Position numbers and translations under genes: made by a program. The notes under the pieces were generated by a model. That model saw only the letters and a program-made list of their open reading frames with translations, ran no database searches and was not told the DNA's origin. From NCBI RefSeq assembly GCF_023238445.1, contig NZ_CP096658.1, forward strand, positions 1,612,001 to 1,676,000: a stretch of 64,000 bases of DNA, read 5' to 3'. Below, piece after piece: positions 1 through 16,566 of the stretch. Position 1 is the stretch's first letter. Each line of letters starts with the position of its first letter. The stretch is from Halorussus gelatinilyticus (GTDB taxonomy: Archaea > Halobacteriota > Halobacteria > Halobacteriales > Haladaptataceae).

Positions 1-379
1 CACCGCCGGCGTCGTGGAGGACTTGGTCTGCGGGGTCGCCGAGGACCACGAGGTGGTCTTCGTGGAGGGACAGGCCGCGCTCTCACACCGGGCGTACTCG
101 GGCGTGACGCTCTCGTTGCTCCACGGCGCGAACCCCGACGCCGTCGTGCTGGCCCACGACCCCGACCGCGAGACTCGGACCCACTTCGACCGGTTCTCGG
201 TCGGCTCTGCCGCGGCCGAAATCGACCTGATAGAGTCGCTCGCCGACACCGAGGTCGCGGCCGTCTCGACGTGGGGCGACCCCGACGAGAGCGACCTCGG
301 GCGACCCGCGGCGAACGTCTACCACGAGGGCGGCCCGGAGCGACTCTTGGAGGCGGTCAGGGAGGCGACCGACTCGTGA
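1..379 (+). CDS. dgcN: DUF1611 / DgcN-type D-glutamate N-acetyltransferase, C-terminal part
   Basis: Only the C-terminal part is in the window. The reading frame is open from base 2 and the true start lies to the left. The visible residues match the C-terminal NTP-binding-like domain of DUF1611 proteins: a segment around EVVFVEGQAAL, then a Gly-containing turn and the HDPDRE stretch. Family members called DgcN acetylate D-glutamate using acetyl-CoA, working with a DgcA epimerase. The stop TGA overlaps the GTG start of the next gene, a dipeptide epimerase, so the two are probably translationally coupled. The pairing supports the family call. The exact substrate is inferred. Confidence 0.75.
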   Translation, partial: TAGVVEDLVCGVAEDHEVVFVEGQAALSHRAYSGVTLSLLHGANPDAVVLAHDPDRETRTHFDRFSVGSAAAEIDLIESLADTEVAAVSTWGDPDESDLGRPAANVYHEGGPERLLEAVREATDS

Positions 380-1500
380 CCGACGACGCGAGCGTCGGCG
401 ACGCCGGACGCGAGGCGAACGCCGAAATTCCGGTCGCCGAGGTCCGAGCCGACCCGCTGAACCTCGAACTCGACGCGCCCTTCGAAATCGCGCTCGGCAC
501 GCGCCACGAGGCACGGAACCTCCTCGTGGAAGTCGAGACCGAGGCGGGCGTCGTCGGCTACGGCGAGGGGTCGCCCCTGCCGCCCGTGACCGGCGAGACG
601 CAGGGTGCCGCGGTCGAAGTCGCGCGGGCGGCCGCCGACCTGCTCGCGGGCCGGGACCTCGCCGACTACCGCGCCGTCTGTGAGGACCTCCGGGCGGCGT
701 TTCCCGGCGCGAACTCGGCGCTGTTCGCGCTCGAAACCGCGGTGCTGGACGCCTACTGTCGGAGCAGGGGGCTCGCGCTCTCGGAACTGTTCGGCGGGTC
801 GCCCGGTTCCGTCGAGACCGACCTGACGATTCCCATCGTGGCGGCCGAGGAAGCCCGCGAGCGGGCTTCCTCGGCCGCGGGCGACGGCGGCGCGGGATTC
901 TCGCACCTCAAGATCAAGACCGGCGACGAGGTGGAGGCGGCGGTCGAGCGCGTGGCGGCCGCCCGCGAGGGCGCGCCCGACGCCGAACTCAAGGTGGACG
1001 CGAATCAGGGCTGGACGCCCGAGGAGACGCTCCGGTTCCTCCGGCGACTCGGGGAGCGCGGCGTCGAGTTGGCACTGCTCGAACAGCCCGTCCACCGCGA
1101 GGACCTCGCGGGGTTGGCGCGGGTCCGGGACCGCGCGCGAGTCCCGGTCGCGGCCGACGAAGCGGTCTTCTCGCCCGAGGACGCGCTGGCGGTCGTCCGA
1201 GCGGACGCCGCGGACGCGCTGAACGTGAAGTTGGGCAAGTCCGGCCCGATGGCGGCCGCCGACATCGCGGCCATCGCCGAGGCCGCGAATCTGGAGTTGA
1301 TGGTCGGCTGCATGCTCGAAAGCGCGCTCGGCATCCGGGCGAGCGCCCACGTCGTGGCGGGACTCGGATCGTTCGACTACGTGGACCTCGACGGCAACCG
1401 CCTGCTCGCCGAGGACGTGGTGGATTCGGGAGCGAGTTCGGGTCCCGAAATCGAGATTACCGGGCCGGGTCACGGCGTCGTTCCCGAGACCGAGCGATGA
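376..1500 (+). CDS. dgcA: Dipeptide epimerase (enolase superfamily, DgcA/YcjG type)
   Basis: 374 residues from the GTG at 376, chosen because it overlaps the upstream stop (GTGA) and removes an Arg/Gly-rich artefactual N-terminus. The fold is the muconate-lactonizing subgroup of the enolase superfamily. The first catalytic lysine pair is in HLKIK (K179, K181). Metal ligands are D208 (KVDAN), E236 (LLEQP) and D261 (AADEA). The second lysine region is NVKLGK (K285/K288). A DLD motif at 337-339 is the signature that contacts the substrate ammonium group in L-Ala-D/L-Glu epimerases. In DgcN-DgcA systems the homologue epimerises N-acetyl-D-Glu; in E. coli YcjG it acts on murein dipeptides. Which applies here is open. 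Cytoplasmic. Confidence 0.85.
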   Translation: MTDDASVGDAGREANAEIPVAEVRADPLNLELDAPFEIALGTRHEARNLLVEVETEAGVVGYGEGSPLPPVTGETQGAAVEVARAAADLLAGRDLADYRAVCEDLRAAFPGANSALFALETAVLDAYCRSRGLALSELFGGSPGSVETDLTIPIVAAEEARERASSAAGDGGAGFSHLKIKTGDEVEAAVERVAAAREGAPDAELKVDANQGWTPEETLRFLRRLGERGVELALLEQPVHREDLAGLARVRDRARVPVAADEAVFSPEDALAVVRADAADALNVKLGKSGPMAAADIAAIAEAANLELMVGCMLESALGIRASAHVVAGLGSFDYVDLDGNRLLAEDVVDSGASSGPEIEITGPGHGVVPETER

Positions 1501-1538: not shown

Positions 1539-1558
1539 GTCCACTGTCACCATTACTC

Positions 1559-2293
1559 ATGAGCGTAACACGCATCTCGGACGCCGACGACGGCGTGTCG
1601 TACAAGCAGGTCGAACTCGACCTCTGGCACCCCAACTGCTGGACGCTGGAAGTGACCGACGACCACCCGAGCACCCACGTCATCGAAAAGTCGCTGTACC
1701 CGACCGACGACCAGATAAAGGGCGACTTCCTGCTCGTCGCGGACGGCGAGACGAGCATCGAGACGTTCGTCGAGGCCATCGACGACCACCGGGTCGTCGG
1801 CGAAGTCGCGGTCCTCAAGCAGTCCGACGAACGCGCTCGCGTCGTCGTCAACTACGAGCGCACGAGCAGCATCGTCCCCGACATCGTGAACTCCGAGTTC
1901 ATGCCGGTCGACCCCGTCCACATCACCGAGGGCACCGAACACTGGACCGTGCTGGTCAGGGCGGACAGACTCGGTGACGTGGTCGAAGCGATGCAGGCGG
2001 AGTACGACGTGGACGTGAGTTCGATTCGGGAGGCCGACTCGAAGGAGAGCGTCGAGTTCGCCGACTTCGTGGACCAGGTCGAGGACCGCCTCTCGGCCCG
2101 CCAGACCGAGAGCCTGCTGAACGCCCGGCGCATCGGCTACTACAACTGGCCCCGCGACGTGTCGGCCGACGCCGTGGCCGACTGTCTGGAGGTGAGCAAG
2201 CCGACCGTCCTCGAACACCTCCGGAAGGGCGAGCAGAAGGTGTTGAACCTCTGTCTGGACGAGTTGGAACGCCGGCAGGGTCGACCGCGATGA
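1559..2293 (+). CDS. Bat-type HTH_10 transcriptional regulator
   Basis: 244-residue regulator of the bacterio-opsin-activator (Bat) family. The C-terminal 60 residues form an HTH_10 domain: ARRIGYYNWPRDVSADAVAD, then CLEVSKPTVLEHLRKGEQKVL as the recognition helix region. The N-terminal 170 residues are the family's sensor-like domain, with WHPNCWTLEV near the start; no ligand can be named. The gene sits between the epimerase (58 nt upstream) and the S9 peptidase, whose ATG overlaps its stop (ATGA), so regulator and peptidase are co-transcribed. A local role controlling the peptide-catabolism genes is inferred from position. Confidence 0.85.
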   Translation: MSVTRISDADDGVSYKQVELDLWHPNCWTLEVTDDHPSTHVIEKSLYPTDDQIKGDFLLVADGETSIETFVEAIDDHRVVGEVAVLKQSDERARVVVNYERTSSIVPDIVNSEFMPVDPVHITEGTEHWTVLVRADRLGDVVEAMQAEYDVDVSSIREADSKESVEFADFVDQVEDRLSARQTESLLNARRIGYYNWPRDVSADAVADCLEVSKPTVLEHLRKGEQKVLNLCLDELERRQGRPR

Positions 2294-4410
2294 GCGGCGA
2301 TGCGGACGCGACGGCCGGGGAATCGCCATCCGACGACGCCGACGAATCGCCACTCGATGCCGAGAAATCGCCACCCGACGACGCCGACCTCGAAATCGCG
2401 GACGTTCTCGACGTGGACTACCCGAGCGCGCCCGAATGGTCGGCCGACGGCGCGTTTCTGGCGACGCTGGTCTACGAGGACGACGGGAACGCCCTCCGAA
2501 TCGTCGCGCCCGGCGAGTCGGCCGCGTCGTCGGACGCGGCCGACTCGTCCGACGCCGGAATCAGTGGCCACGTCACCGGATTCGCGTGGGCACCCGAGAC
2601 CCGACCCACCGAGTTCGTCCTGACCACCGACGCGGGCGAGACCTACCGGGGCGACGCCGCCGACCGGTCGCTCCGACTCGTCGCCCGGTCGCCCGCGGGC
2701 GAGGCCCACCACGAGTGGTCGCCGTCGGGAGACCGACTCGCGTTCTACCGCGACGGGGCGGTCTGCGTCCGCGACGCCGACTCGGGCGCCGAGCGCCGCC
2801 TCGACCTGCCGGGCCACGAGACGTTCCTGCCGAGCGAGCGCATGCTGGCGTGGGACGACGCGGGCGAGCGCCTCGCCTTCTCGTTCACCGACCGCGAGTC
2901 CCGACAGGTCGGCGTCGCGGACGCCGAGTCGGGCGACCTGCTGTGGCGGACCGACGCGCCGGCGTCGTGCGCGAATCCGGCGTGGCTCGCGGACGGCCGG
3001 GTCGTCTTCGAGCGCGTCGTGGCGAGCAGGACCGTCCGGTCGGTGGTCGCCGCCGACCCCGAGACCGGCGCGGAGACCGAACTGGTCCGCGACGAGGACG
3101 AGCGCGGCACCGTCTCGTCGGGCGCGCCGACCGTCTCGCCCGACGGGACCCGACTCGCCGTCGCGCTCCCGCTCGACGGGTGGGAACACGTCTTCGTCCT
3201 CGACTGCGAGACCGGCGAGCGTCGGCAACTGACCGCGGGCGAGTTCGAGGACAAGGGCCTCGCCGGGTCCTCGCCCCGGTGGGTGGACGGCGAGACGCTG
3301 GCGTTCGCGTCGAACCGCCGGAACCTCGGCGAGCGACAGCTCTTCGCGGTCGATGTCGAAACGGAGGCGGTCCGCCCGCTGGTCGAGTCGCGGGGGACGA
3401 ACGTCCACCCGGACCCCTCGCCCGCGGGCGACCGACTGGCGTACGTCCACGCCGACGCCGACGTCTCGCCCGAGGTCAGGGTGCAGTCGCTCGGCTCCGA
3501 CGAACCGCCGACCCGCGTGACGCGCTCGACGGTCGAGGACTGGCCGGTCTCGGCGCTCGCACCCGAAGAAGTCAGTTTCGAGAGCGCGGACGGCCGCGAG
3601 ATTCGGGGCTACCTCTTCGACCCGCGCGAGACCGAGGCGGTCGAGGCGGAAGCGGACGAGGGTGAGGCGGAAACGGGCGACGCGGCGGACCTCCCCGCCG
3701 TGGTCTGGGTTCACGGCGGCCCGATGCGCCAGATGCGCGACGGCTGGCACCCCTCGCGGTCGTACGGTCTCGCCTACGCCTTCCACCAGTACCTCGCCCG
3801 GCGGGGCTACGTCGGCCTGCTGGTCAACTACCGCGGCGGCATCGGCTACGGCCGGGAGTTCCGCCAGTCGCTGACCGAGGGGTACGGCCGCGACGAGATG
3901 GCCGACGTGGTGGCGGGAGCCGAGTTCCTCCGGAAGCGCGAGTTCACGTCGGGGCAGGTCGGCGTCTGGGGGCTGTCGTACGGCGGGTACGCGACGCTCC
4001 AGATTCTGGGCACCCACCCCGAGGCGTTCGACGTGGGCGTCAACCTCGCGGGGCTGGCGGACCTCGAACTCTACGAAGAGTGGGCGACCCAGACGAAGTT
4101 CCCCGCCGTCGAGTCCGCCCAGTCGCTGACTTTCGGCGGGAACCCGTGGGCGGCCGCCGACGAGTGGGCCGCGGCGAGTCCGAAGACCCACTTCGAGAAC
4201 TACGAGGCACCGCTGTACAACTTCCACGGCACGGGCGACTCGTACGTCAACTTCGAGCAGTTGGACGCGGTAATCGAGGGGATGCTCGAACACGGCAACG
4301 AGTACGAAGCCGAGTACTACCCCGGCGAGAACCACGTCTTCGCCGAGCGCGCGACGTGGGAGCGCACCCTCCGGAAAATCGAGTCGGCGTTCGACGAGCA
4401 TCTGAAGTGA
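2290..4410 (+). CDS. S9 family (prolyl oligopeptidase-like) serine peptidase
   Basis: 706-residue cytoplasmic oligopeptidase of the acylaminoacyl-peptidase/S9C type. An acidic N-terminal tail of about 35 residues precedes a seven-bladed beta-propeller (about 40-430), with repeated TolB-like blades such as PEWSADGAFLATLVY and SPSGDRLAFY. An alpha/beta hydrolase domain follows (about 440-706). The catalytic triad is visible: Ser563 in GLSYGG, Asp650 in HGTGDSYVN and His682 in GENHVF. The propeller limits access to short peptides, so the enzyme suits imported oligopeptides. It overlaps the HTH_10 gene by four bases. There is no signal peptide. Confidence 0.92.
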   Translation: MSGDADATAGESPSDDADESPLDAEKSPPDDADLEIADVLDVDYPSAPEWSADGAFLATLVYEDDGNALRIVAPGESAASSDAADSSDAGISGHVTGFAWAPETRPTEFVLTTDAGETYRGDAADRSLRLVARSPAGEAHHEWSPSGDRLAFYRDGAVCVRDADSGAERRLDLPGHETFLPSERMLAWDDAGERLAFSFTDRESRQVGVADAESGDLLWRTDAPASCANPAWLADGRVVFERVVASRTVRSVVAADPETGAETELVRDEDERGTVSSGAPTVSPDGTRLAVALPLDGWEHVFVLDCETGERRQLTAGEFEDKGLAGSSPRWVDGETLAFASNRRNLGERQLFAVDVETEAVRPLVESRGTNVHPDPSPAGDRLAYVHADADVSPEVRVQSLGSDEPPTRVTRSTVEDWPVSALAPEEVSFESADGREIRGYLFDPRETEAVEAEADEGEAETGDAADLPAVVWVHGGPMRQMRDGWHPSRSYGLAYAFHQYLARRGYVGLLVNYRGGIGYGREFRQSLTEGYGRDEMADVVAGAEFLRKREFTSGQVGVWGLSYGGYATLQILGTHPEAFDVGVNLAGLADLELYEEWATQTKFPAVESAQSLTFGGNPWAAADEWAAASPKTHFENYEAPLYNFHGTGDSYVNFEQLDAVIEGMLEHGNEYEAEYYPGENHVFAERATWERTLRKIESAFDEHLK

Positions 4411-4740: not shown

Positions 4741-6156
4741 TCACTTCAGCAGTCCACGAACGAACTCGTCTTGCCGACGCCGGGCCTCGTCCGCTTCGAC
4801 CGTCAAGCCGCCGTACACGACCGAGAAGAACGCGTCCGGGTCGTCGTCACGGCGAACCACGCCCGAGAGCGCGCACGTCGCCGTCAGGGTCCCGGTCTTG
4901 GCGCGCAGACCGTCCGCGCCGTCCAAACGCGACGACAGGGTGCCCTCGCCCGGCGCGGGGAGCGAGTCGAAGAACGCGTCGGCCCACGGCGCGTCGTCGG
5001 CCCGCGCGAGCAGGCCGACCATCCCCCGCGCGGTGACGAGGTTGTAGCGCGACAGGCCCGACCCGTCGCGGAGGCGGCAGGCCGCCGCGCCGCACTCTTC
5101 GAGGAAGTCGGTGGCTATCGACTCCCACGCCGCCCACGACCCCTCGCCGTCGCACTCGGCGGCGACGGTCCGGGCGAGTTGCTCGGCGACGAAGTTGTCC
5201 GAGGGAACGTTCATCGACCGAAGCAGGTCGGCGACCGGCGCGGACTCGACGGCGCAGGCGAACGCCTCCTCCGCGTGAACGTCGTCCCGGTCGGTCGCGG
5301 TCGAATCGGCCGATTCGACCGCGCGAACCTCGCCTTCGACGCTCACGCCCGCGGATTCGAGCGCGTCCAGCAACGCGAGTCCGAAGTGGCGCTCGGGCCG
5401 GACGACCGGCGCGCGCTCGGTCCGGTCGGCCCCCGGCGGGAGCGCTCCCTCGACGCGAATCGTCCCTTCGTCGGGGTCGGTGACGACCCGCAGGTCGCCG
5501 TTCCCGTCGCTCGCGTCGGCCTCGCCGTCCTCGCTCTCGCCGCCCGCCTCGACCGCACGCAGGTCGGTCTCGACCGCTATCTCGGGCGAGTCGGGGACGA
5601 CCGAGACCCGAAAGTTGCCCGACTCCTCGGGGTCCGAAATCCGAACCTCGACGGCGTTGCCGGCGAGTGCGAGCGCGGAACTCGGCGCGCCGTAGGCGTA
5701 CCGCCGGTCGCCGACGGTCCACCCCGGTCCGTACCGGCCGCCGGAGAAGTGAGTCCCGTCGAGCAGGAGGTCGCCGGCGACCGCGCCGACCTCCGCGGCC
5801 ACCGCGTCGGCGAGCGCGCGCAGGTCCTCACCGTCGAGGTCCGGCGCGCCAGACCCGCGGACGAGGAGGTCGCCCGCGAGTCGGTTGCCCTCCCTCTCGC
5901 CGCGCCCCTCGACGCGCGTCTCGAAGGCGTAGCCGGGTCCCAACGCTTCGAGCGCGAGCGCCGACGTGACGAGTTTCGTGTTCGACGCCGGGGCGAGCGC
6001 CCGGTCGGGGTCGAGGCTGGCGAGGGCCTCGCCGCCACCGTCGTCGCTGGCGAGTCCGTCGCCCGCGGCGACGGACTCGCCGTCCGCTCGCGCCACGGCC
6101 AGCACCCCGACGCTCGCGCCGTCGATGCCCGCGAGCGGCGCGGTCGGGTCGCTCAC
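4741..6156 (-). CDS. dacB: PBP4-like D-Ala-D-Ala carboxypeptidase/endopeptidase (peptidase S13) without signal peptide
   Basis: 471 residues from the GTG at 6156, which overlaps the stop of the upstream ATPase gene (GTGA). All three penicillin-binding motifs are present in order and at PBP4-like spacing: SNTK (S58-K61), SDN (319-321) and KTG (420-422). The region between the first and second motifs carries the long insertion typical of S13 enzymes, including an acidic haloarchaeal stretch near 205-220. Family members remove the terminal D-Ala or cut D-Ala-mDAP bonds. There is no signal peptide or lipobox, so the product should be cytoplasmic, unlike bacterial PBP4. It is the last gene of a dpp transporter operon, which suggests it acts on imported peptides. 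Confidence 0.9.
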   Translation of the reverse strand: MSDPTAPLAGIDGASVGVLAVARADGESVAAGDGLASDDGGGEALASLDPDRALAPASNTKLVTSALALEALGPGYAFETRVEGRGEREGNRLAGDLLVRGSGAPDLDGEDLRALADAVAAEVGAVAGDLLLDGTHFSGGRYGPGWTVGDRRYAYGAPSSALALAGNAVEVRISDPEESGNFRVSVVPDSPEIAVETDLRAVEAGGESEDGEADASDGNGDLRVVTDPDEGTIRVEGALPPGADRTERAPVVRPERHFGLALLDALESAGVSVEGEVRAVESADSTATDRDDVHAEEAFACAVESAPVADLLRSMNVPSDNFVAEQLARTVAAECDGEGSWAAWESIATDFLEECGAAACRLRDGSGLSRYNLVTARGMVGLLARADDAPWADAFFDSLPAPGEGTLSSRLDGADGLRAKTGTLTATCALSGVVRRDDDPDAFFSVVYGGLTVEADEARRRQDEFVRGLLK

Positions 6157-7445
6157 CACTCGAACGCCTCGCTGGCCTCGGCGTCCAAGTGGCACGCCGA
6201 CCGGTGGTTCTCGCCGACGGATTCGAGCGGCGGCACCTTCGACTCGCAGCCCGACTCGTGGGGCGCGAGCGCACCGAGCGCGTCGTTCCAGTCGTCGCGG
6301 GCGACCGCTTCGGCGGCCTCCCGAATCGCGCGCTCGGCGTCCGGCGGAATCTCGCTCAGGCGGTCGAAGTGGGCCGCCACCAACTCGTCGGGCGAGCGGT
6401 CGGCGTCGAGGTCGCCGGTTTCCACGCCGTCGCGGAACGCGGCGAACTCCGCGTAGCTCTCGTCGGTGAACCCCTCCGGGACGATGAAAGCGGGACAGCG
6501 CGTGTGGAACTTACAGCCCGAGGGCGGGTCGGTCGGACTCGGCACGTCGCCCGCCAGTTCGGCGACGACGCCCGCCGTGTCGGGGTTCGGGTTCGGCACC
6601 GCGTCGAGGAGCGAGCGCGTGTAGGGGTGGTGCGGTTCGGTGAACAGGCGCTCGGTCGGCCCGGTCTCCACGAAGTCGCCGACGTACATCACCGACACGC
6701 GGTCGGCCATGTTGCGGATGACGCCGAGGTCGTGGGTGATGAACAGGTACGTCAGGCCGAACTCCTCCTGCAGGTCGTTCATCAGGCTAAGAATCTGGGC
6801 CTGCACGGACATGTCCAGCCCCGAGACCGGTTCGTCGGCGATGACGAGGTCCGGGTTGATGCTGAGCGCCCGCGCGAGGTTGATGCGCTGGCGCTGGCCG
6901 CCCGAGAATTCGTGGGGGTAGCGACCGTAGTAGTCGCCCTCCAGTCCGACCTGTTCGAGCAGTTCGACCGCGCGGTCCTTCCGGTCGGCCTTCGACCACC
7001 CCGCGGCCTCCAGCGGGTCGGCGATGATTTCGCCGACCTTCCGGCGCGGGTTCAGACTGCTCATCGGGTCCTGAAACACCATCTGGACGTTCTCGCGGAA
7101 CCACTGCTCGTCCTCGCTCTCGAAGTCCGTCACGTCCCGGCCGTCGAACCGGATGGTCCCGCCGGTCGGTTCTTCGAGACCGACGACGGTCCGTGCGAGC
7201 GTGGACTTGCCGCACCCCGACTCGCCGACGACGCCCAGCGTCTCACCCGGATAGAGGTCGAAGCTCACGCCGTCCACGGCCTTGACGCTCGAATCGTCGA
7301 AGCGGAACGGGAGGCCGTCGCCCCCGCGGTCGAACTTCACGGAGTTGACGAATCCGGAGTTGACCGGGAAGTGCGTCTTCAGCCCCTCGACGCTCAGGAG
7401 GGGTTGGTCGGCGTCTTCCCGACGGCGCTCGACGGTCGAACTCAT
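6153..7445 (-). CDS. dppF: Dipeptide/oligopeptide ABC transporter ATPase (DppF type)
   Basis: 430-residue nucleotide-binding subunit. Walker A is GESGCGKST, the signature is FSGGQRQR, Walker B is LVIADEP, and the switch His is in FITHD. It ends with the oligopeptide-transporter C-terminal extension that contains the cysteine pair in CKFHTRCP, plus an acidic tail of about 100 residues that is longer than in bacterial DppF. It overlaps the DppD gene by four bases (ATGA) and the dacB-like gene by four bases (GTGA). It energises uptake of peptides through the adjacent permeases on the cytoplasmic face of the membrane. Confidence 0.93.
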
Positions 7446-8548
7446 CGGTCACCTCCGAGTCCGCCGCCACCGGCGTCGCGGTCGTCGGCTCTCGGTCCGC
7501 CGTCCGTCCGGCCCCTTCCGCCGGTTCCACCGCTCCCTCCTCGTCCGCCGCCCGTCTCGTGGAGTCGCGGGTCGGACTTGCTCTCGTCGCCGTAGATCAG
7601 ACAGGCAGCCTCGTGGTCGGGACCCACCTCGTAGTCGGCGGGTTCGACCTCGGCGCAGTCGGCGAACGCGGCCGGACACCGGGTCCGGTAGCGACACCCC
7701 GACGGCGGGTCGATGGCGCTCGGCATCGACCCCTCGATGGGGTCCAACTCGCCGACCTGCCGGTCGGCGGTCACCGTAGAGCGGAGCAGCGCCTGCGTGT
7801 AGGGGTGCTTGGGGTTGCGATACAACTCCTCGTAGGGCGCTTTCTCGGCGACTTCGCCGAGGTACATCACGGCCACCCGGTCGCACACCTCCCGGACGAC
7901 CCCGAGGTCGTGGGTCACGTATATCATGCTCGTGTCGTACTCCGTCTGGATGTCGTTGAACAGGTCGAGAATCTGGGCCTGAATCGTCACGTCGAGCGCC
8001 GTCGTCGGCTCGTCGGCGATTATCAGGTCGGGTTCGCAGGACAGCGCCATGGCGATGATGGCGCGCTGTTGCATCCCGCCCGAGAACTCGTGGGGGTACT
8101 GGTCGGCGCGCTCGGCCGGGTCGGGGATGCCCACGTCGTCCAGCAGTTCGACCGTGCGGTCCCACGCCTCCTCGTCGGTCACGTCGTGGTGGTGTTCGAT
8201 GATTTCGGAAATCTGGCTCCCGACCGTGAAGACGGGGTTTAGCGCCGACATCGGGTCTTGGAAGATGAACGAGATCTCCTTTCCCCGGACCTCGTTCCGG
8301 AGTTCGGTCTCCGAATAGTCGAGCAGCTCCTCGCCCTTGAACCGAATCGACCCGTCTACGATGTGGCCGGGCGGCCGAACTAATCCGAGGAGACTCTGGA
8401 CCGCGACGGACTTGCCCGCGCCGCTCTCGCCGACCAGTCCGAGCGTCTCGCCCCGCTCGATTTCGAAGCTGATGCCGTCTACCGCCTGCACGATGCCCTC
8501 CTCGGTGTAGAAGTACGTCGTGAGGTCTTCGACTTCTAGTAGGGCCAT
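7442..8548 (-). CDS. dppD: Dipeptide/oligopeptide ABC transporter ATPase (DppD type)
   Basis: 368-residue ATPase partner of the preceding DppF-type subunit. Walker A is GESGAGKS, the signature is FSGGMQQR, Walker B is LIIADEP, and the switch His is in YVTHD. The C-terminal oligopeptide domain has Cys residues in GCRYRTRCP and further on. The last 40 residues are a Gly/Arg/Asp-rich low-complexity tail. The start overlaps the stop of the permease gene by one base (TGATG), and the end overlaps dppF, so the operon is tightly coupled. Confidence 0.92.
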   Translation of the reverse strand: MALLEVEDLTTYFYTEEGIVQAVDGISFEIERGETLGLVGESGAGKSVAVQSLLGLVRPPGHIVDGSIRFKGEELLDYSETELRNEVRGKEISFIFQDPMSALNPVFTVGSQISEIIEHHHDVTDEEAWDRTVELLDDVGIPDPAERADQYPHEFSGGMQQRAIIAMALSCEPDLIIADEPTTALDVTIQAQILDLFNDIQTEYDTSMIYVTHDLGVVREVCDRVAVMYLGEVAEKAPYEELYRNPKHPYTQALLRSTVTADRQVGELDPIEGSMPSAIDPPSGCRYRTRCPAAFADCAEVEPADYEVGPDHEAACLIYGDESKSDPRLHETGGGRGGSGGTGGRGRTDGGPRADDRDAGGGGLGGDR

Positions 8549-9597
8549 CAGTCGTCACCTCCGCCTTGCGGGTCGGGACCCGGACCACCGTCGGTCGGGT
8601 CGCCGTCGATGGTCGGTTGCGCCGGGGCGTCGGGTTCGGTGGTGCCCGGCATCGGCAGGTCGTCCTCGTCGTAGGGTTGGCGGAGCGTCGTCTTGGGGTC
8701 CATCGCGTCGCGCAGGCCGTCGCCGAGCATGTTGAACCCCATCACGGTCAGGAATATCATCAGGCCGGGGAACGCCGCGACCCACGGCGCGATGAGCATC
8801 GCCTGCTGAGCGTCGTTCAGCATCCGGCCCCACGAGGCGGTCGGCGGTTGGACGCCGAACCCGAGGAACGACAGCGCGGCCGCGCCGATGATGACGCCGC
8901 CCATCGAGAGCGTCGCCTGCACCAGCACCGCCGCGAACCCGTTTGGCACGATCTCGCGAAGCAGAATCTTGTGGGTCGGCAGGCCCGCCGCGCGCGCCGC
9001 GTCGACGTACTCCTCTTCCCGAATCGAGAGGACCTCCGAGCGCATCACGCGGGCGTAGGCCGGGATGCCGATGACGCCGTAGGCCAGAAACAGGTTCCAG
9101 ATGCTCGGGCCGAGAATCGCCATCAGGGTCATCGCCAGCACGAGACCCGGAATCGAGTACAGCACTTCCACGAGGCGCATCAGCAGGTCGTCGGTGTAGC
9201 CCCCGCTGTAGGCCGCGAACGACCCGACGAGGATGCCGCCGCCGAACGAGATGCCGACCGAGACGATGCCGATGGAGATGGCGATGCGGGTCCCGTAGAT
9301 GATGCGGGCCAACACGTCGCGGCCGAACTGGTCGGTGCCCATCGGGTGTTCGAGCGACGGCGGCGCGAAGGCGTTTATCTGGTCGTGGGCGTGGGGGTCC
9401 GCGACCAGCGTCGTGATGATGGCCTTGTCGAGCAGGAGTTTGTCGATGGTCGAGACGATAGCCAGCACGACCAGCGTCCCGACGATGAGTCCGCCCGCGA
9501 GCGCGGTCGGACTGTGCCGCAGTTCCTTGAGTGTCGATACGACGCCGCTCTCGGTCTCGAAATCCGCACTGGAGACGGTGGTACTTTTCGAGCTCAT
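8548..9597 (-). CDS. dppC: Peptide ABC transporter permease (DppC type)
   Basis: 349-residue inner-membrane permease. A cytosolic N-terminus is followed by a first TM helix (about 33-52), then a large external loop containing HPMGTDQFGRDVLARIIYG, the hallmark of DppC/OppC proteins, then five more TM helices. The EAA loop is in the ARAAGLPTHKILLREIVPNG segment. The Pro/Gly/Asp-rich tail (last 40 residues) is an acidic, probably disordered extension. It pairs with the DppB gene immediately upstream. Confidence 0.92.
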   Translation of the reverse strand: MSSKSTTVSSADFETESGVVSTLKELRHSPTALAGGLIVGTLVVLAIVSTIDKLLLDKAIITTLVADPHAHDQINAFAPPSLEHPMGTDQFGRDVLARIIYGTRIAISIGIVSVGISFGGGILVGSFAAYSGGYTDDLLMRLVEVLYSIPGLVLAMTLMAILGPSIWNLFLAYGVIGIPAYARVMRSEVLSIREEEYVDAARAAGLPTHKILLREIVPNGFAAVLVQATLSMGGVIIGAAALSFLGFGVQPPTASWGRMLNDAQQAMLIAPWVAAFPGLMIFLTVMGFNMLGDGLRDAMDPKTTLRQPYDEDDLPMPGTTEPDAPAQPTIDGDPTDGGPGPDPQGGGDD

Positions 9598-9598
9598 G

Positions 9599-10549
9599 TC
9601 AATCGTACCTGATTCGGGGGTCGATGTAGGCGTACGCGAGGTCGGTCAGCAGGACGCCGGTCAGGAACAGGACGGCGAAGAAGATGTTCAAGCCGATGAT
9701 GACGCCGTAGTCCTGATTTAGCAGGCCGTTGTAGCCCAGTCGCCCCATGCCGGGGATGGCGAAGATGGACTCCACGATGACGCTCCCGTCGAGCAGGAAC
9801 GACAGTTGGAGTCCGATGATGGTCACGAGGGGCAACAGCGCGTTCCGGAAGGCGTGCCGAAGCAGGATGCGCCGCTCGGGAAGCCCGTAGGCGCGCGCCG
9901 TCTCGACGTAGTCCTTCGATAGCTCCTCGACCATCGACGAACGGGTCATCCGCATCAGCGTCGCGGTCTGTGCCGTGGCGAGCGTGATAATCGGCAGGAC
10001 GAGGTGCTTGGCCGCGGCTACCGGGTCCTTCAACGGCGAGACGTACCCCGACGCCGGGAGCACGTTGAACTCGTAGGCGAACAGGAAGATGAGCATCAGC
10101 CCGAGCCAGAAGTTCGGGGTCGAGAGGCCGGCGAGTCCAACGAACCGCGAGACGTGGTCGCCCAACTCGTTGTGCTTGGCCGCCGAGTAGACGCCCAGCA
10201 GCAGGGCGGTCGGGAGCGCGATGACGTACGACAGGCCCATCAGCACGACCGTCGGTCCCATGCGTTCGAGCATGAGGCCGGTCACCGGGCGCTTGCGCAT
10301 GAACGACTCGCCGAGGTCGAACTGCAGCAGTCGCCAGAGGTAGTCGAGGTACTGCTTCCAGAGCGGTTGGTCGAAGCCGTATCGCTTTATCAGTTCGTCC
10401 GCGAGGGCCTGACTCGGGTTCAGGCCCAGATATATCCGGACCGGGTTCCCCGGCAGGGCGTGGACCATCACGAACGTGAGGGTGAACACGCCTAGCAGGA
10501 CCGGAATTATCTGAAGCGTGCGTCGAATCGTGTATCTGTACAAACTCAT
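9599..10549 (-). CDS. dppB: Peptide ABC transporter permease (DppB type)
   Basis: 316 residues with six predicted TM helices. The N-terminus RYTIRRTLQIIPVLLGVFTLTF is characteristic of DppB. The EAA coupling loop is in ARAYGLPERRILLRHAFRNA, and the usual GSVIVESIFAIPGMG motif follows. The gene lies 81 bp after the binding-protein gene and one base before dppC. With DppC it forms the membrane channel. Confidence 0.93.
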   Translation of the reverse strand: MSLYRYTIRRTLQIIPVLLGVFTLTFVMVHALPGNPVRIYLGLNPSQALADELIKRYGFDQPLWKQYLDYLWRLLQFDLGESFMRKRPVTGLMLERMGPTVVLMGLSYVIALPTALLLGVYSAAKHNELGDHVSRFVGLAGLSTPNFWLGLMLIFLFAYEFNVLPASGYVSPLKDPVAAAKHLVLPIITLATAQTATLMRMTRSSMVEELSKDYVETARAYGLPERRILLRHAFRNALLPLVTIIGLQLSFLLDGSVIVESIFAIPGMGRLGYNGLLNQDYGVIIGLNIFFAVLFLTGVLLTDLAYAYIDPRIRYD

Positions 10550-10630
10550 GCTTGGCGTGTCGTCCGACGTGAGCGTCTCATTGTCATTGAGTAACTATAG
10601 TCGTACTGAATGCGGAAACGGGGAGGGACG

Positions 10631-12358
10631 TTACTTCTGGATGTACGCGTTCGACCACTCGTTACAGAGCGGTTGCTGGGTGAACGCGCTCGGCTCGTAA
10701 TCTTTCACGTCCTTGCTCCACCCGGTGACGGCCTGCTCGGAGAACACAGGGATGTGGGGGTACAGCGACTGCCACGTCTCGGCGGCGTCGATGTACATCT
10801 TCTTGCGCTCGGCCCTGTCGTTCGTCCGGCGGGCCTGCCGAATCGTCTCGTCGACCTTCTGGAGTTTGTCGCTGTCCTGGGTCTGGTAGAGGTACGCGGC
10901 CGTCGCGTTCCCGACCACGTCGTCGTTCATGCCGCCTTCGTCGTTGCGCAGGTCCCGGAACAAGTAGTAGTAGAACCCGTCGGGGTCCTGTCCGCCCGAC
11001 CAGCCGTAGATGTTCACGTCGAACTCCCCGGAGTCGAGTTCGGTGAGCCACTGGCCGATGGTGACCTCCCGGACGTTCGCCTCGATGCCGACCTTCTTCA
11101 GCTCCTTCTGGAGGATGATGGCCATGTTTTTGAACTTCGAACTGGCCAGCGACGATATCTTGAGCGTCTTGTCCATCCCGCCGCCGTAGCCCGCCTCCTT
11201 GAGGAGCTGTTTGGCCTTCTGGTGGTCCTTGGCCGGGTAGTACTTCTCCTTCCACTCCTTCCACGGGAACTCCCACGACTTGTTGACGTCCTTCGGCATG
11301 AAGCCGTACGAGCGCTTGCCGAGTTGCCCCTTCGTGGCCTTCAGAATCTCGTCGTAATCGACGAGGTACTGCATCGCCTCCCGGACTTTCACGTTGTCGA
11401 ACGGCTTGCGCATCGAGTTGAAGATGAGGCCGTTGTAGTCGAAGTGGGAGATGCGCTTCATCTTGATGCCCTGTTCGGACTTGGCCTTCCCGATCAGGTT
11501 CTTCGGCACGGTGGCCTGATGGACTCCGCCGGAGGCCAGTTCGACGAACTGGACCTGCGGTTTGGGGATGATGCGCATCCGCACTTTCCCGAGGTTCGGC
11601 TTCTTGAGGAAGTAGTCCTCGTTGCGCGCCAGGTCGATGTGCGACGACGAGACGTGCTTGTCGAACGCGAAGGGACCGGAGCCGACAGGGTCCTGGCCGA
11701 ACTTCTTCTGGCCCTTCTGTTCGGCGGCGCTCTTGGACACGATGCCCGCGTTCATCCCCGACAGCACCAGTTGGAACAGCGCGAAGGGGTACTTGAGGTT
11801 GAACGTCGCCTCGTACTTGCCCGACGCCTCGACGGTGTCGATGAAGTCGAGGTTCGCCTTGTTCGGCGACTTGTTCGCGGGGTCGAGCATCCAGTTGATG
11901 GAGTAGGCCACGTCCTCGGCCGTGAGCTCGTCGCCGTTGTGGAACGTCACGCCCTCCTTGAGCGGGATGACGAACGTCGTGTCGTCCTGCTGTTTGGGCT
12001 GTTCCTTGGCGAGGTGGGGCACGAACTTCTTCCCGTCGGGGCTGGGAAGGTAGAGCGTGTCGAAGATGTAGTGGAGGAAGCCGTTCACCCACGCGAGCTC
12101 GTTCATCCGGGGGTCGAGCGTCGTCGCGTCCTCGGCCGTCGTCCCGATGAACGTGCCGCCGCCCTGCACGTTCTGTTGCTGTTCTTCGGTCGTCTCGGTG
12201 CCGCCACCCATCGACTCCGCAGTCGTGGTGCCGGCACCGCCAGTGGTCGTCTCTTGGCCGCCGTCGCCGCCAGTGCAACCAGCCAGCACGCTGCCACCCA
12301 GTAAGCCCGAAGTCGCCAAGAAGCGACGCCGGTCGAAATTCGTACGTTTGTCAGTCAT
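10631..12358 (-). CDS. Peptide ABC transporter substrate-binding lipoprotein (SBP_bac_5)
   Basis: 575-residue extracellular binding protein. The N-terminus has a Tat signal, DRRRFLATSGLLGG, ending in the lipobox LAGC, so it is exported folded and lipid-anchored at the outer face of the membrane. A Thr/Glu-rich linker (about 35-65) precedes the bilobal type-5 binding domain, with typical segments LDPRMNELAW and FVIPLKEGVTFHNGDELTAEDV. The ligand cannot be read from sequence; the neighbours suggest short peptides. It is the first transporter gene and has its own candidate promoter at 12411-12419. Confidence 0.92.
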   Translation of the reverse strand: MTDKRTNFDRRRFLATSGLLGGSVLAGCTGGDGGQETTTGGAGTTTAESMGGGTETTEEQQQNVQGGGTFIGTTAEDATTLDPRMNELAWVNGFLHYIFDTLYLPSPDGKKFVPHLAKEQPKQQDDTTFVIPLKEGVTFHNGDELTAEDVAYSINWMLDPANKSPNKANLDFIDTVEASGKYEATFNLKYPFALFQLVLSGMNAGIVSKSAAEQKGQKKFGQDPVGSGPFAFDKHVSSSHIDLARNEDYFLKKPNLGKVRMRIIPKPQVQFVELASGGVHQATVPKNLIGKAKSEQGIKMKRISHFDYNGLIFNSMRKPFDNVKVREAMQYLVDYDEILKATKGQLGKRSYGFMPKDVNKSWEFPWKEWKEKYYPAKDHQKAKQLLKEAGYGGGMDKTLKISSLASSKFKNMAIILQKELKKVGIEANVREVTIGQWLTELDSGEFDVNIYGWSGGQDPDGFYYYLFRDLRNDEGGMNDDVVGNATAAYLYQTQDSDKLQKVDETIRQARRTNDRAERKKMYIDAAETWQSLYPHIPVFSEQAVTGWSKDVKDYEPSAFTQQPLCNEWSNAYIQK

Positions 12359-12410
12359 GATTGAGTACGGTCAACTCGAACCGTGATAACGGATAGCAAG
12401 TCGAATGGGG

Positions 12411-12419
12411 GTAAATAAG
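12411..12419 (-). promoter_or_regulatory. Candidate box A of the dpp operon
   Basis: On the minus strand this reads CTTATTTAC, a good box A. The ATG at 12358 is about 57 nt downstream, implying a leader of roughly 30 nt. It lies in the short gap after the 157-residue unknown gene, so dpp transcription may be partly independent of lysA. Confidence 0.45.
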
Positions 12420-12433
12420 TGCGCCCTATTATG

Positions 12434-12907
12434 CTAGCGGTCAGCAACGACCTGCACCGAGAGTTCGTCGTACGCGCCCCGAGCGCGCCAGTCCGGAACG
12501 GCGAGGTACCCCGTGAACGCGACGGTTCCGGGGTACGCGACCCACTCGTCGCCGTCCCGACCTCGGCGGCGAATCCGGCCGTCCCACGTCGCCGAGAACG
12601 CCCGGCGCTCGCCGCCGCCGAGGACGGTCGTCCGGGTCGCCTCGGGCGGTTCGATGCCGCGCTCGTCGGCCTCCGGCGCGTCGTCCACCCGCCACCCCCA
12701 GACGCGACTGGTCGGGTGCGTGAGTCGGACCGAGACCGGAAGCCGGTTCCTGACCGCGACGACGAACCGGGCCGACTCGCCGACCGTCACGGTCTCGGGG
12801 CCGTGGACCGTCACCGAGAGCGCCCGGACCGCGAGCGACTCGGGGACGAGTCCGGCGGCCCACCCGGTACCGCTACCGTCGTCGTCGGAGAGTGAAAACT
12901 GCCGCAT
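12434..12907 (-). CDS. Conserved-looking beta-rich protein of unknown function inside the lysA-dpp block
   Basis: 157 residues with no family I can name with confidence. The alternating pattern (LSVTVHGPETVTVGESARFVV, then AFSATWDG and GTVAFTGYL) suggests an immunoglobulin-like beta-sandwich resembling the BsuPI/secreted-inhibitor type. No signal peptide, TM helix or catalytic motif is visible. It lies 26 bp after the lysA-like gene and 75 bp before the peptide-binding protein, all on the same strand, so it is probably co-expressed with peptide uptake. Confidence 0.65.
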   Translation of the reverse strand: MRQFSLSDDDGSGTGWAAGLVPESLAVRALSVTVHGPETVTVGESARFVVAVRNRLPVSVRLTHPTSRVWGWRVDDAPEADERGIEPPEATRTTVLGGGERRAFSATWDGRIRRRGRDGDEWVAYPGTVAFTGYLAVPDWRARGAYDELSVQVVADR

Positions 12908-12933
12908 TCGTCGGGACAGTCGGACCGGCCCGA

Positions 12934-14229
12934 CTAATTTGTTCGCCCCGACGACGCCTCCTCGCCTCGCAGGTCGTCGGGAATCCTGTCGTTGCCCAGC
13001 ACGTCCTCGCAGGTCTCGCGCGCCCGAATCGACTCCACGTCGCCGGACTCCCGGACCAGCGCGACCGGGGGCTTCGGTTCGGCGTTGGTGTGGCTCGCGC
13101 TCCCCAGCGAGTAGGCCCCGATTCGGTCCACGACCAGCACGTCGCCGCGGTCGAGTTCCGGCAGGGCAACGTCCTCCTGAATCACGTCGCCGGTGTAACA
13201 GAGCGGTCCGGCGACGTGGTACTCCTCGGTCGGGTCGGCCTCCGAGAGCGCGTAGATGGGGTAGGGCCAGTACGACGAGACCGCGTTCGTCCCGGCGTCC
13301 AGCACCGCGAACGAGGCGTGGGGCGTCTCCTTCACGACGCCGACCTCGGCGAGCAGCGCGCCCGCGTTGCCGACGAGTCGGCGGCCGGGTTCGACGCAGA
13401 GGGTCGGTTCCGCGAGGTCGCGGTCGGCCGCCGCGCTCCGCACGGCGTCGGCCATGCTCGCCACGATGGTCTCGGTGTCAGGTACCTCCTCGTCGTAGGG
13501 GACCGGGAAGCCCCCGCCGAGGTCCAGCACGTCGATTTCGACGCCGGTCGCGTCGCGCACGTCGGCGGCGAACGACAGCATCTCGCGGGCCGCGACCTCG
13601 TAGGGTTCGACGCCGCGAATCTGGCTCCCGACGTGCAACTGGACGCCGACGAGTTCGACGCCCTGCGCTTCTACCGCGTCCTCGGCGACCGCCAGCGCCC
13701 GGCCCGACTCGATGTCCAAGCCGAACTTGCTCTCGCGCGTGGCGGTGGCCACCTCGGGGTGAGTGGGCACCTCCATCGCGGGATTGCCGCGAATCAGCAC
13801 CTCGGCCTCCGTCCCGGTCCGGTCGGTCGCCTCCCGAATCTTGGCCAACTCCTGTTCGTTGTCCACGAGGAACCGCTCGACGCCGAGGTCGAGCGCGCGC
13901 TCCACGTCCTCGACGGGTCGATTCATCCCGGTCAGAAGCACGTCCTCGGGGTCGAACCCGGCGGCCTGCGTGGCGGTGAGTTCGCACCGAGCGTACGCCT
14001 CGGCGTGACAGCCCTCGTCGCGGAGGACCGACAGGACGCCGAGGTTGTAGTTGGCCTTGACCGCGAAGTGAATCGTGGAGTCGGGGTAGTGGTCGTCGAG
14101 CGCCGCCCGGACCTCCCGGTAGTTGCGCCGCAGGTCCTCCTCGAAGAAGGCGTACAGCGGAGTGTCGAACGCCTCGAACAGCGCGTCCCGGTGGTCGAGC
14201 AGTCGGGCCTTGCGTGCCGCTAAGTCCAT
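12934..14229 (-). CDS. lysA: Diaminopimelate decarboxylase-like PLP enzyme (LysA family)
   Basis: 431-residue fold-III decarboxylase (alanine-racemase-like barrel plus beta domain). The PLP lysine is K58 in HFAVKAN. The phosphate-binding glycine loop is DLGGGFPVPY, followed by EPGRRLVGNAG. The active-site Cys of the dimer interface is in GPLCYTGD. The length matches LysA, which converts meso-DAP to L-lysine by acting on its D-centre. The usual dapA/dapB/dapD/dapF genes are absent nearby; instead it heads a strand-uniform block leading into a peptide transporter. It may therefore serve a catabolic role or use a related amino acid. It is divergent from the M42 peptidase. Confidence 0.82.
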   Translation of the reverse strand: MDLAARKARLLDHRDALFEAFDTPLYAFFEEDLRRNYREVRAALDDHYPDSTIHFAVKANYNLGVLSVLRDEGCHAEAYARCELTATQAAGFDPEDVLLTGMNRPVEDVERALDLGVERFLVDNEQELAKIREATDRTGTEAEVLIRGNPAMEVPTHPEVATATRESKFGLDIESGRALAVAEDAVEAQGVELVGVQLHVGSQIRGVEPYEVAAREMLSFAADVRDATGVEIDVLDLGGGFPVPYDEEVPDTETIVASMADAVRSAAADRDLAEPTLCVEPGRRLVGNAGALLAEVGVVKETPHASFAVLDAGTNAVSSYWPYPIYALSEADPTEEYHVAGPLCYTGDVIQEDVALPELDRGDVLVVDRIGAYSLGSASHTNAEPKPPVALVRESGDVESIRARETCEDVLGNDRIPDDLRGEEASSGRTN

Positions 14230-14355
14230 AGTCGGTGGAGGGAGAACGGCGACAAAAGCTATCGACCTAGCATGCGGGGTCCCGAGGCGAGCGAACCCCG
14301 AGGCGGGCTACCGCGGACCGAGCAACTATCACGCTCGACTGTGAGACCTGTGGGC

Positions 14356-15435
14356 ATGGACGAACCTGCCGTCCGCTTCGCGGACCTCGAAACGCTGGTC
14401 GCGGCGCGCGGGCCGCCGGGTGCGGAGTACCCCGTCGCCGACGCCTTCGCCGAACTGGTCGAACCGCACGTCGATTCGGTCGGGTACGACGAGATGGGCA
14501 ACGTCGTCGCCACGAGCGAGGGCGACCCCGACGCGCCCGAGATTCTGCTCGCGGCCCACACCGACGAACTCGCCGTGCTCGTCGAGGACGTGACCGACGA
14601 CGGCTTCCTGGAGTACGCGATGCTCGGGGGCCACTACAAGGGCAACTTCCCCGGCCAGCGCGTCCGGGTCGGACCGGACGGCGTCCTCGGCGTCGTCGGC
14701 CCGAAGTCCCGCCACTACATGTCCGGCGACGAGAAGGAGTCGCTGGCCGAGGACCTCGTCGTGGACGTGGGCGCGAGCAGTCGCGCCGAGGTCGCGGAAC
14801 TGAACGTCGAACCCGGCGACCACGCGACGTGGGACCGCGAGGTCGCCGAACTCGCCGGCGACCGCGTCACGGGCCGGGCGCTCGACGACCGCCTCGCGCT
14901 CGCGGTCCTCCTCGGAGTCGCGCGCACCGCCGACACCGACGCCACGGTCCACTACGCCGCCACGGTGCAGGAGGAGGTCGGCCTGCGCGGCGCGCGGGCG
15001 ACCGGGTTCTCGGTGGACCCCGACGTCGCGATTGCGGTCGAAATCTTCCCGGCCGACGACTACCCCGCGGGGGGCGACGACGGACCGGGGGTCGAACTCG
15101 GTGAGGGTCCGGTCGTGGAGTTCGGCGACGGCACCTCCGAGTACCTGTTCGGCGGCGTGCTGGTCGATAGACGGACGCGCTCGTGGCTCGAAACCGCCGG
15201 GGAATCGGCCGGGGCGTCGCTCCAGCAGGCCGTGATGATAGGCGGCACCACCGACGCCACCGAGTTCCAGCAGGTCCGGGGCGGGCGACACGCCGGAGCC
15301 ATCGCGGTCCCCTGTCGCTACACCCACTCGCCGGTCGAGACGGTCTCGCTCGCGGACGCCCACGAGACCGCGGCCGTCCTCGCCGAGGCCCTCGAAACCC
15401 CGTTCCCGTCCCGCGACGAGGTCCGGTGGGGATGA
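14356..15435 (+). CDS. M42 family aminopeptidase (FrvX/PepA-like)
   Basis: 359 residues from the ATG at 14356; upstream in-frame codons look noncoding. Dinuclear metallopeptidase signatures: H68 in AAHTDE, D177 in RALDDR as bridging ligand, the E206-E207 pair in QEEVGLRG, and the final His in YTHSPVE. Where M42 enzymes usually have an Asp ligand (VDV), this protein has Glu229 in AVEIFP, a conservative change. These enzymes form cytoplasmic tetrahedral complexes that trim peptides from the N-terminus. The stop overlaps the ATG of the next gene (ATGA). Confidence 0.88.
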   Translation: MDEPAVRFADLETLVAARGPPGAEYPVADAFAELVEPHVDSVGYDEMGNVVATSEGDPDAPEILLAAHTDELAVLVEDVTDDGFLEYAMLGGHYKGNFPGQRVRVGPDGVLGVVGPKSRHYMSGDEKESLAEDLVVDVGASSRAEVAELNVEPGDHATWDREVAELAGDRVTGRALDDRLALAVLLGVARTADTDATVHYAATVQEEVGLRGARATGFSVDPDVAIAVEIFPADDYPAGGDDGPGVELGEGPVVEFGDGTSEYLFGGVLVDRRTRSWLETAGESAGASLQQAVMIGGTTDATEFQQVRGGRHAGAIAVPCRYTHSPVETVSLADAHETAAVLAEALETPFPSRDEVRWG

Positions 15436-16374
15436 GGCCCGACACGCCCGCAATCGACCGCCGCGACGAACTCGTCAAGTACGTCGAGTCCTACGCCGAC
15501 CGCCTCGACGGCCGACTCGGCGTCTTTCTCGGATTCCCGCGCGGTCCCGACGAGTTCGACGTCGTGGCCGAGCGAAACGCCGAAACCGCCTTCGCCGCGG
15601 CGAGCACCATCAAACTGCCAATCCTCTACGCGCTCTACGACGAGTACGACGGCCGACTCGGGGACTTGGAGGAGAGCCGGGAAATCGCGGCCGAGAACCG
15701 GGTCGCCGGGAGCGGTCTCTACCACCTGCTCGACTCGACCGCCCCGTCGGTCGAAGACCTCGCTCGCGCGATGATAGCCGTCAGCGACAACGCCGCGACG
15801 AACGAACTCGTCGACCTCTTGGGGATGGACCGAATCGAGGAAACCGCGGCCGACCTCGGGATGGAGCGGACCCGCCTGCGCCGGAAGATGATGTCGACGG
15901 TGGGCGACAACGACCTCGAACTGACCGGCGACTGGCCCGCGGGCGAACCCGCGAACGCGACCGCGCCCGCCGACTGCGCCCGCCTGTTCGCCGACCTGAT
16001 TTACCGGACGACGCTCTCGGACGCGGCCTACGACCGGCTTTCGGTCCCGCTCCGCGAGCAGAAGCACGCGATGCTGTTCCCGCGGTACCTCCCGATGGAC
16101 GTCGAGCGTGCGCACAAGACCGGACAACTGCCGAGCGCCGCGCTGGATACGGGGTACGTCGAACCGCCGGCCGGAATCCGCCGCGGCGGATTCGGCCGAC
16201 CCCCACTCCGACTCTCACTCCAACCCCGACCCTGTCACCGTCCCCGACCCCGACGACCCGCCCCTCGTCTTCGCGGTGTTCGCCGACGAACTCGCCGTCG
16301 GCACCGACGGGGCCGACGCCATCGCCGAAATCGGGGACGCGGCGTTTTCGTGGCTGTCGCGTCGGTCGGCGTGA
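15432..16374 (+). pseudogene. Class A beta-lactamase-like serine hydrolase, frameshifted
   Basis: The first frame runs from the ATG at 15432 and gives a serine beta-lactamase/transpeptidase fold without a signal peptide. STIK (S58-K61), SDN (118-120) and KTG (229-231) are all present; no obvious omega-loop E166xxLN is seen. About 16 residues after KTG the frame loses sense. The missing last strand and helix (LVFAVFADEL then DAIAEIGDAAFSWL) continue in the +1 frame from about 16171 to the TGA at 16374. The switch falls in a short GC-rich run near 16161-16174, consistent with one extra base or a two-base loss. It is either a real lesion or an assembly error; all catalytic motifs lie before the break. 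Coupled to the M42 gene by ATGA. Confidence 0.85.
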
Positions 16375-16566
16375 GTCGCGGCGCGCCTCGCGCTCGCATC
16401 GCGTCGCCGAACTGATGGGACACTCGTTACCACGTCTCGACAACCGACTTACGGGAAGCCCCGAAAGGGGAGGACACGCCGAAAATCCCTCGCGCTGGAC
16501 CGAGCGACCGACGAACCGACGACCGACCCGCAACCTTCAAAAACACCCTCTTCGTTTCGAAACACC

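Follow-up and report, generated by a model that had tools for sequence, protein, structure and literature searches.

A diaminopimelate decarboxylase relative with an altered distal site in a probable haloarchaeal island for the uptake and dismantling of murein peptides

The window analyzed here is a 64,000-nucleotide stretch of Halorussus gelatinilyticus DNA (contig NZ_CP096658.1, positions 1,612,001 to 1,676,000). An open reading frame (ORF) of 431 residues was located at exactly 12934–14229 on the minus strand, where the initial annotation had described a LysA-like decarboxylase, and it is named LysA2 here. Its Pfam matches, Orn_Arg_deC_N and Orn_DAP_Arg_deC, assigned it to the fold-III PLP decarboxylases. 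LysA2 is the first gene of a same-strand block with the order LysA2-orfX-oppABCDF-PBP4, and a second set with the order YkfC (NlpC/P60)-DUF1611-dipeptide epimerase-HTH-S9 is convergent with this block. The features of window positions 1–16415, together with the gene just outside, are as follows:

12934..14229, minus strand: LysA2, relative of diaminopimelate (DAP) decarboxylase (DapDC) with an altered distal site (S319, Y345, T381); Pfam, NCBIfam and alignment
12434..12907, minus strand: orfX, 157 residues; adjacent to LysA2 in 15 of the 22 orthologue loci
10631..12358, minus strand: oppA-like substrate-binding protein (SBP_bac_5); Pfam/NCBIfam
9599..10549, minus strand: oppB-like permease; Pfam/NCBIfam scan
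8548..9597, minus strand: oppC-like permease; name based on its sequence and position alone
7442..8548, minus strand: oppD-like ATPase; Pfam/NCBIfam scan
6153..7445, minus strand: oppF-like ATPase; family scan
4741..6195, minus strand: PBP4/S13 D-Ala-D-Ala carboxypeptidase/endopeptidase-like protein with SxxK, SxN and KTG; family scan and motifs
2290..4410, plus strand: S9 prolyl-oligopeptidase/dipeptidyl-peptidase-like peptidase; family scan
1559..2293, plus strand: HTH_10 (Bat-type) regulator; family scan
376..1500, plus strand: enolase-superfamily L-Ala-D/L-Glu (dipeptide) epimerase-like protein with a DLD motif; the listed ORF starts at 271
1..379, plus strand: 3' end of a DUF1611/DgcN-like gene; whole gene at L057:11291-12379
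G000:C1:1610120-1611238 (L057:10120-11238), wholly outside the window, in the plus-strand set: YkfC-like NlpC/P60 protein; profile search
14344..15435, plus strand: M42 aminopeptidase, divergent neighbor; seen at 5 of 22 loci, which belong to a single genus
15432..16415, plus strand: serine hydrolase with the class-A beta-lactamase fold (PF13354), likewise divergent; accompanies LysA2 in 16 of 22 loci

The initial annotation had placed an unknown gene and the dpp operon after LysA2 on the same strand. The order stood, as the 157-residue ORF, for which the profile scan returned zero Pfam or NCBIfam matches, is followed on that strand by the SBP_bac_5 transporter. The name "dpp" held only as far as the Opp/Dpp type; none of the three parts scanned, namely, the substrate-binding protein, one permease, and one ATPase, scored over a curated NCBIfam cut-off. 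That finding had included neither the PBP4 and epimerase genes nor the NlpC/P60 gene that lies a short way beyond the window. The DUF1611/DgcN-like gene starts approximately 710 bases before the window, and the YkfC-like protein is the sole NlpC/P60 match of this genome. Two further genes were left out as pathway members, namely, OCD (18068-19057), present in only 2 of 22 loci, and a creatininase (19797-20534), whose matches in five loci include distant paralogues. Toward its 3' end, the serine hydrolase gene at 15432–16415 (plus strand) departs from its close relative at L033 by a gap of one base and a short insertion of low complexity. The last part of the ORF is thus read in another frame, either through a real change or through an assembly error.

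LysA2 scored 328.6 bits against the NCBIfam equivalog TIGR01048 (lysA), above the cut-off of 297.9, and no dap gene was found among the neighbors scanned, as expected from the earlier description of a decarboxylase separated from lysine genes. The better TIGR01048 match of the genome, with 366.8 bits, was located approximately 757 kb away at C1:2383693-2384871, between dapD/dapB and dapF, where dapB is represented by a partial ORF (104.7 of 122 bits). The second lysA in a dap cluster, for which the initial annotation had advised a search, is thus present. With two TIGR01048 matches in the genome at E ≤ 0.001, the opposing case that it had named, in which LysA2 is the only lysA, does not apply to the gene content. 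LysA2 and the canonical LysA are 35% identical. Given the canonical lysA in the dap cluster and the different distal site of LysA2, an ordinary misplaced lysA was rejected as the whole story.

The distal site was compared in an alignment of 21 LysA2 rows, which included L035 and excluded L045 and L054; the first alignment had been made without L035, L045, and L054 (split frame). The LysA2 of L045 (L045:9403-9429, genome G190) stops reading after 8 codons and has two TGA in the match, which may reflect either a damaged gene or an error in the sequence. The PLP residues K58, H199, E280, R283, and C344 were kept in all 21 rows, as was EPGR. However, the positions of Arg285, Glu315, and Tyr351 of the Thermotoga maritima enzyme were occupied by Ser319, Tyr345, and Thr381 in 21/21 LysA2 rows, while Arg, Glu, and Tyr were retained in 10/10 LysA or LysA-like rows (8/8 canonical haloarchaeal and 2/2 bacterial LysA-like). 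The equivalent of Arg249 (R283) was kept in LysA2, and likewise Y323 and Y373; the segment around Ser319 was gapped in one pairwise view, that against 2yxx, and held no Arg. In the midpoint-rooted tree with 8 canonical and 2 bacterial rows, in which long branches were flagged, the 21 LysA2 rows formed one side of a branch with 100/100 support. Because the three distal residues that define DAP decarboxylases were tested and found absent, we advise against classifying LysA2 as a DAP decarboxylase.

For the T. maritima enzyme, the distal carboxylate is described as bound by Arg249 and Arg285 and the distal amine as bound by Glu315, with Tyr351 coming from the partner subunit and placed close to the catalytic lysine (PMC8277567). 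For the Cyanothece enzyme, key residues were replaced by alanine in eight mutants, of which all but R196A are given as almost inactive, and the contact residues include Tyr372, Cys399, Glu400, Tyr428, and Tyr436 (PMC12599289). As LysA2 lacks residues with which DAP decarboxylases grip the L-end of free meso-DAP, it is more likely to take a substrate with a changed distal group. Since none of its three distal positions is charged, a DAP peptide with an amide-capped L-end would be an attractive candidate substrate.

The initial annotation had suggested a salvage role for imported DAP. In its plain form, with LysA2 as one more conventional DAP decarboxylase that makes lysine from the free, imported amino acid, we consider this idea unlikely. 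It would agree with the TIGR01048 score, with an island context that could provide DAP, and with the best match of the fold search, the Methanocaldococcus jannaschii DapDC structure 1twi. That search used an AlphaFold2 monomer model with a mean pLDDT of 77.5, and since the distal-site segments 317-325, 327-334, 341-349, and 372-382 were below 50, the model was used for the fold match alone. Free DAP as a substrate is also compatible with the report that most T. maritima E315X variants keep a reduced activity on DAP, with E315T losing most of it (PMC8277567). However, the replacement of all three distal residues in every LysA2 row argues against an ordinary enzyme. Moreover, a plain duplicate would look redundant, because each of the 23 genomes in which the LysA2 match is complete or nearly so holds at least one further match to the LysA2 query, at 35–39% identity in at least 17 of the 23 among the matches listed.

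Another amino acid was also weighed, namely, D-Lys or D-Orn, as for DokD, or some other, with the murein genes as mere neighbors that share no substrate. The DokD model NF052544 scored LysA2 at 189 bits and the canonical LysA at 125.7, and in the fold search, DokD structures ranked directly behind 1twi/1tuf. However, 189 bits is far under the cut-off of 700, which places LysA2 outside the family. A true DokD (899 bits) carries Asp, Asp, and Tyr at the three distal positions, against Ser, Tyr, and Thr in LysA2, and a DokD-type enzyme was therefore rejected. The distal pattern of LysA2 is thus that of neither DapDC nor DokD. As this reading would also leave the tight co-occurrence with PBP4 unexplained, we regard it as improbable. 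A 47% identical relative of LysA2 was found on a plasmid of Haloarcula sp. JP-L23 (L106:13980-15242), with distal Ala/Tyr/Phe, sharing the Tyr. It lies approximately 5 kb from an annotated dapF, and of the island genes tested, none except an amidase was found beside it.

The PBP4 of the window scored 210.3 bits against TIGR00666 (cut-off 107.8) and belongs to this family, with the motifs SNTK, SDN, and KTG. In 19 oppF-linked island copies, including that of the window, a possible start overlaps the oppF stop by 7–43 bases, leaving just 32–69 residues ahead of SxxK; in the window, the possible starts that overlap the oppF stop are GTG. No twin-arginine leader was seen in these 19 copies, with start codons inferred, and the island copies thus appear to lack the signal peptide expected of an exported PBP4. 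In the case of PBP4 copies from elsewhere, an RR (Tat-like) motif such as DRRTFLGATG or DRRRFVQATG was present in 11/11, and 73–100 residues preceded SxxK in the 10 where SxxK was found. Island copies and the others could not be distinguished by plain N-terminal hydropathy, and accordingly, the two classes, leaderless in the island (L033-L054) and with an RR start elsewhere (L095-L105), were told apart by start position and RR motif. It is likely, from these starts, that an intracellular PBP4 stands beside the importer and that some genomes hold an exported copy elsewhere. The RR-type copy was the sole PBP4 found in G016 and G061; that of G016, a genome of 59% completeness, lies on another contig. 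The copy beside LysA2 in G034 is a fragment, and the TIGR00666 search found no PBP4 in the LysA2-positive G094. The genome of the window has a single PBP4, and profile searches of it returned neither Amidase_3 nor NamZ. Lacking both NamZ and Amidase_3, it may not open cell walls alone, and with a single PBP4 and no Amidase_3, the host may feed on fragments that other organisms set free.

Enzymes of these kinds serve bacteria in taking murein stem peptides apart. In such peptides, YkfC is described as separating L-Ala-gamma-D-Glu from the diamino acid, and YkfB as epimerizing L-Ala-D-Glu, and the 2010 description of the YkfC subfamily has it predominantly in four bacterial phyla (PMC2954226). 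The YkfC-like protein of the window's genome combines NlpC/P60 and SH3_16 domains. When it was aligned to dipeptidyl-peptidase VI (3pvq), the letters EYVWGG, DCSG, PRDA, HVAL, and FVHA agreed at the YkfC substrate-site and catalytic positions, mapped from the Bacillus cereus numbers Tyr226, Trp228, Asp237, Cys238, Ser239, Arg255, Asp256, small-257, His291, and His303, and the SH3 Tyr lies in DGYVAWV. Among 21 YkfC-like relatives of LysA2-positive genomes, which exclude the NlpC gene of G034 (outside the stretch covered), DCSG was present in 21/21, the Asp256 equivalent in 19/21, the SH3 Tyr motif in 19/21, and the last His motif in 20/21. The Natrialba-type proteins at L050:10644-11801 and in L051 have PRTT for PRDA and miss this Asp, the hallmark of free L-Ala.

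The epimerase is an MR_MLE protein whose best NCBIfam match was the L-Ala-D/L-Glu epimerase, at 261.7 of the 500 bits of the equivalog cut-off and thus below it. It scored 161.4 bits against DgcA and is hence nearer the dipeptide epimerase. In a comparison with structures, the Bacillus subtilis enzyme 1jpm ranked third with 215.8 bits, behind two members of the family that carry no specific name. The motifs KIK, VDAN, LEQP, AADEA, NVKLGK, and DLDG were all present, which we take to be the catalytic Lys and metal ligands of the enolase superfamily, with DxD as the mark of dipeptide epimerases. The DUF1611 gene scored 196.8 bits against NCBIfam DgcN, below the cut-off of 480.

Subsequently, the distribution of these genes was determined in 293 genomes of the order. 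A clear LysA2 was present in 23 of them, including that of the window, with 65–94% identity to the window protein, and a 24th LysA2-positive genome (G171) holds a fragment at a contig edge, from which its NlpC distance is counted. PBP4 was found in 22/24 LysA2-positive genomes and 1/269 others (Fisher p 8.5e-30), NlpC/P60 in 23/24 and 14/269 (p 1.6e-23), and NamZ, the exo-N-acetylmuramidase, in 16/24 and 8/269 (p 4.7e-15), where the p-values ignore kinship. By genus, the corresponding figures were 8/9 and 0/78 for PBP4, 8/9 and 6/78 for NlpC/P60, and 6/9 and 5/78 for NamZ. The pairing of LysA2 with PBP4 was the tightest of the three, which fits a D-center passed between the two enzymes. NlpC/P60 lies 0.9–14.1 kb from LysA2 in 22 of the 23 genomes with both, and on another contig in G041. 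In 14 well-known control genomes, NlpC/P60 matched in nine, all bacteria, and PBP4 in seven; one of these is the archaeon Methanosarcina acetivorans, so that PBP4 (TIGR00666) is not limited to bacteria or to the island. NlpC/P60 without LysA2 was found in 14 genomes of the order (L075, L076, L078-L089), and a few of these loci also have the beta-lactamase-fold gene, the epimerase, or NamZ, and its function accordingly does not need LysA2.

The 22 orthologue loci, most covering about ±10 kb, contained the opp genes in 18–19 cases, PBP4 in 19, the beta-lactamase-fold hydrolase in 16, orfX and the YkfC-like gene in 15 each, and the epimerase in 7. A composition-ranked gene list was used for loci, as six-frame all-against-all clustering was swamped by spurious ORFs. 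Gene order varies among loci, and the set stays linked. YkfC and the epimerase were within 5 kb of LysA2 in L046, L048, and L050-L053, and both were together with the peptide importer within approximately 10 kb in L046, L050, L051, L052, and the window's own genome, which thus shows the grouping of the B. subtilis operon. In L053, the listed ORFs put PBP4 3 bases behind LysA2, and a NagZ-like GH3 gene and NamZ lie within 7 kb. The annotation of Natrialba magadii pNMAG01 lists dacB, HTH, lysA, NlpC/P60, dipeptide epimerase, serine hydrolase, and D-aminoacylase. D-aminoacylase-like genes were present in all four of the islands L046, L048, L050, and L051, with a PF00144 hydrolase or an amidase in some.

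A general oligopeptide uptake locus, in which murein-type enzymes serve peptides with other D-amino acids, such as those of aged proteins, in a loose grouping, would account for Opp, S9, and M42, all of them general peptide-use families, and for the D-aminoacylase-like and amidase genes of some islands. However, murein is the substrate of YkfC-type NlpC/P60 and of S13 PBP4 where their action is known. Both are uncommon in the order (37/293 and 23/293, respectively) and yet track LysA2, and L053 adds NagZ and NamZ; we therefore consider a general uptake locus very improbable.

The gene of LysA2 very probably belongs to a haloarchaeal island for the uptake and dismantling of bacterial murein peptides. 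The best explanation for the whole, which we favor over the alternatives with moderate confidence, is murein-peptide scavenging in which LysA2 decarboxylates the D-center of DAP. This was based on computed gene content, gene order, linkage, co-occurrence, family membership, and active-site letters, from which we infer the substrates, the direction of flow, and co-transcription in the island. In this pathway, the Opp-type transporter would import free stem peptides that are still cross-linked in part. The PBP4-like enzyme, which is leaderless, would then remove D-Ala and open D-Ala-DAP cross-links, exposing the D-center of DAP, and LysA2 would decarboxylate it. The YkfC-like NlpC/P60 enzyme would release L-Ala-gamma-D-Glu from the third residue, and its D-Glu part would be converted to the L form by the epimerase or by a route of DUF1611/DgcN and the epimerase. 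The DgcN-DgcA route may be the fate of D-Glu here.

Action of LysA2 on the D-center of murein-derived DAP, either free or peptide-bound, is considered moderately probable, whereas a peptide-bound rather than free substrate is put forward tentatively. It is likewise a tentative proposal that LysA2 acts on peptides while the L-center is still bonded to D-Glu (and D-Ala), so that DAP-type would become Lys-type peptides before cleavage. If true, DAP-type murein peptides would be converted to Lys-type ones in an archaeon feeding on bacterial cell walls. The salvage idea of the initial annotation is right in its direction. A salvage role of LysA2 connected with peptide import is strongly supported by neighborhood and co-occurrence, while an action of LysA on free DAP lost ground with the replaced distal residues. 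If the island reading is true, genes annotated as lysA in these species, such as that of Natrialba magadii pNMAG01, may be misnamed and may define a new decarboxylase specificity. In a full-text literature search, murein-peptide catabolism in haloarchaea appeared in none of the titles and abstract openings among the matches listed.

Compared with known systems, the island would be a haloarchaeal counterpart of the Bacillus ykf pathway for murein peptides, to which a decarboxylase has been added. Similar to B. subtilis ykfABC, and to the MpaA/YcjG route of E. coli, a YkfC-like NlpC/P60 protein and an L-Ala-D/L-Glu epimerase-like protein stand beside a peptide transporter. Unlike Bacillus, haloarchaea have no murein, and the island adds a leaderless PBP4 and a DapDC-like decarboxylase, while YkfA (LD-carboxypeptidase) was not among the island proteins scanned. 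LysA2 shares with LysA (TIGR01048, 1TWI, 2YXX) the fold, the PLP residues, EPGR, and the partner-loop Cys, but differs in its distal site and in its place outside the dap cluster. DokD (NF052544, 6N2H) is likewise a DapDC relative with a changed distal site, although with a different set of residues and a family cut-off far above the score of LysA2. Yu and colleagues reportedly described in 2023 a DgcN-DgcA system of D-glutamate catabolism in halophilic archaea. The DUF1611/DgcN-like gene directly ahead of the enolase-superfamily gene resembles it, but the island pair sits among murein-peptide enzymes, and its epimerase is nearer the dipeptide epimerases. Finally, archaeal peptidoglycan hydrolases are likewise a case of archaea acting on bacterial peptidoglycan, and their 2025 description asks whether they serve niche defense or bacteria are a resource, "parcels of nutrition" (PMC12352652). 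Those are described as secreted killing enzymes, whereas uptake and intracellular dismantling are suggested here. A linked uptake-and-dismantling set in murein-free archaea would make the resource option directly testable through growth on stem peptides.
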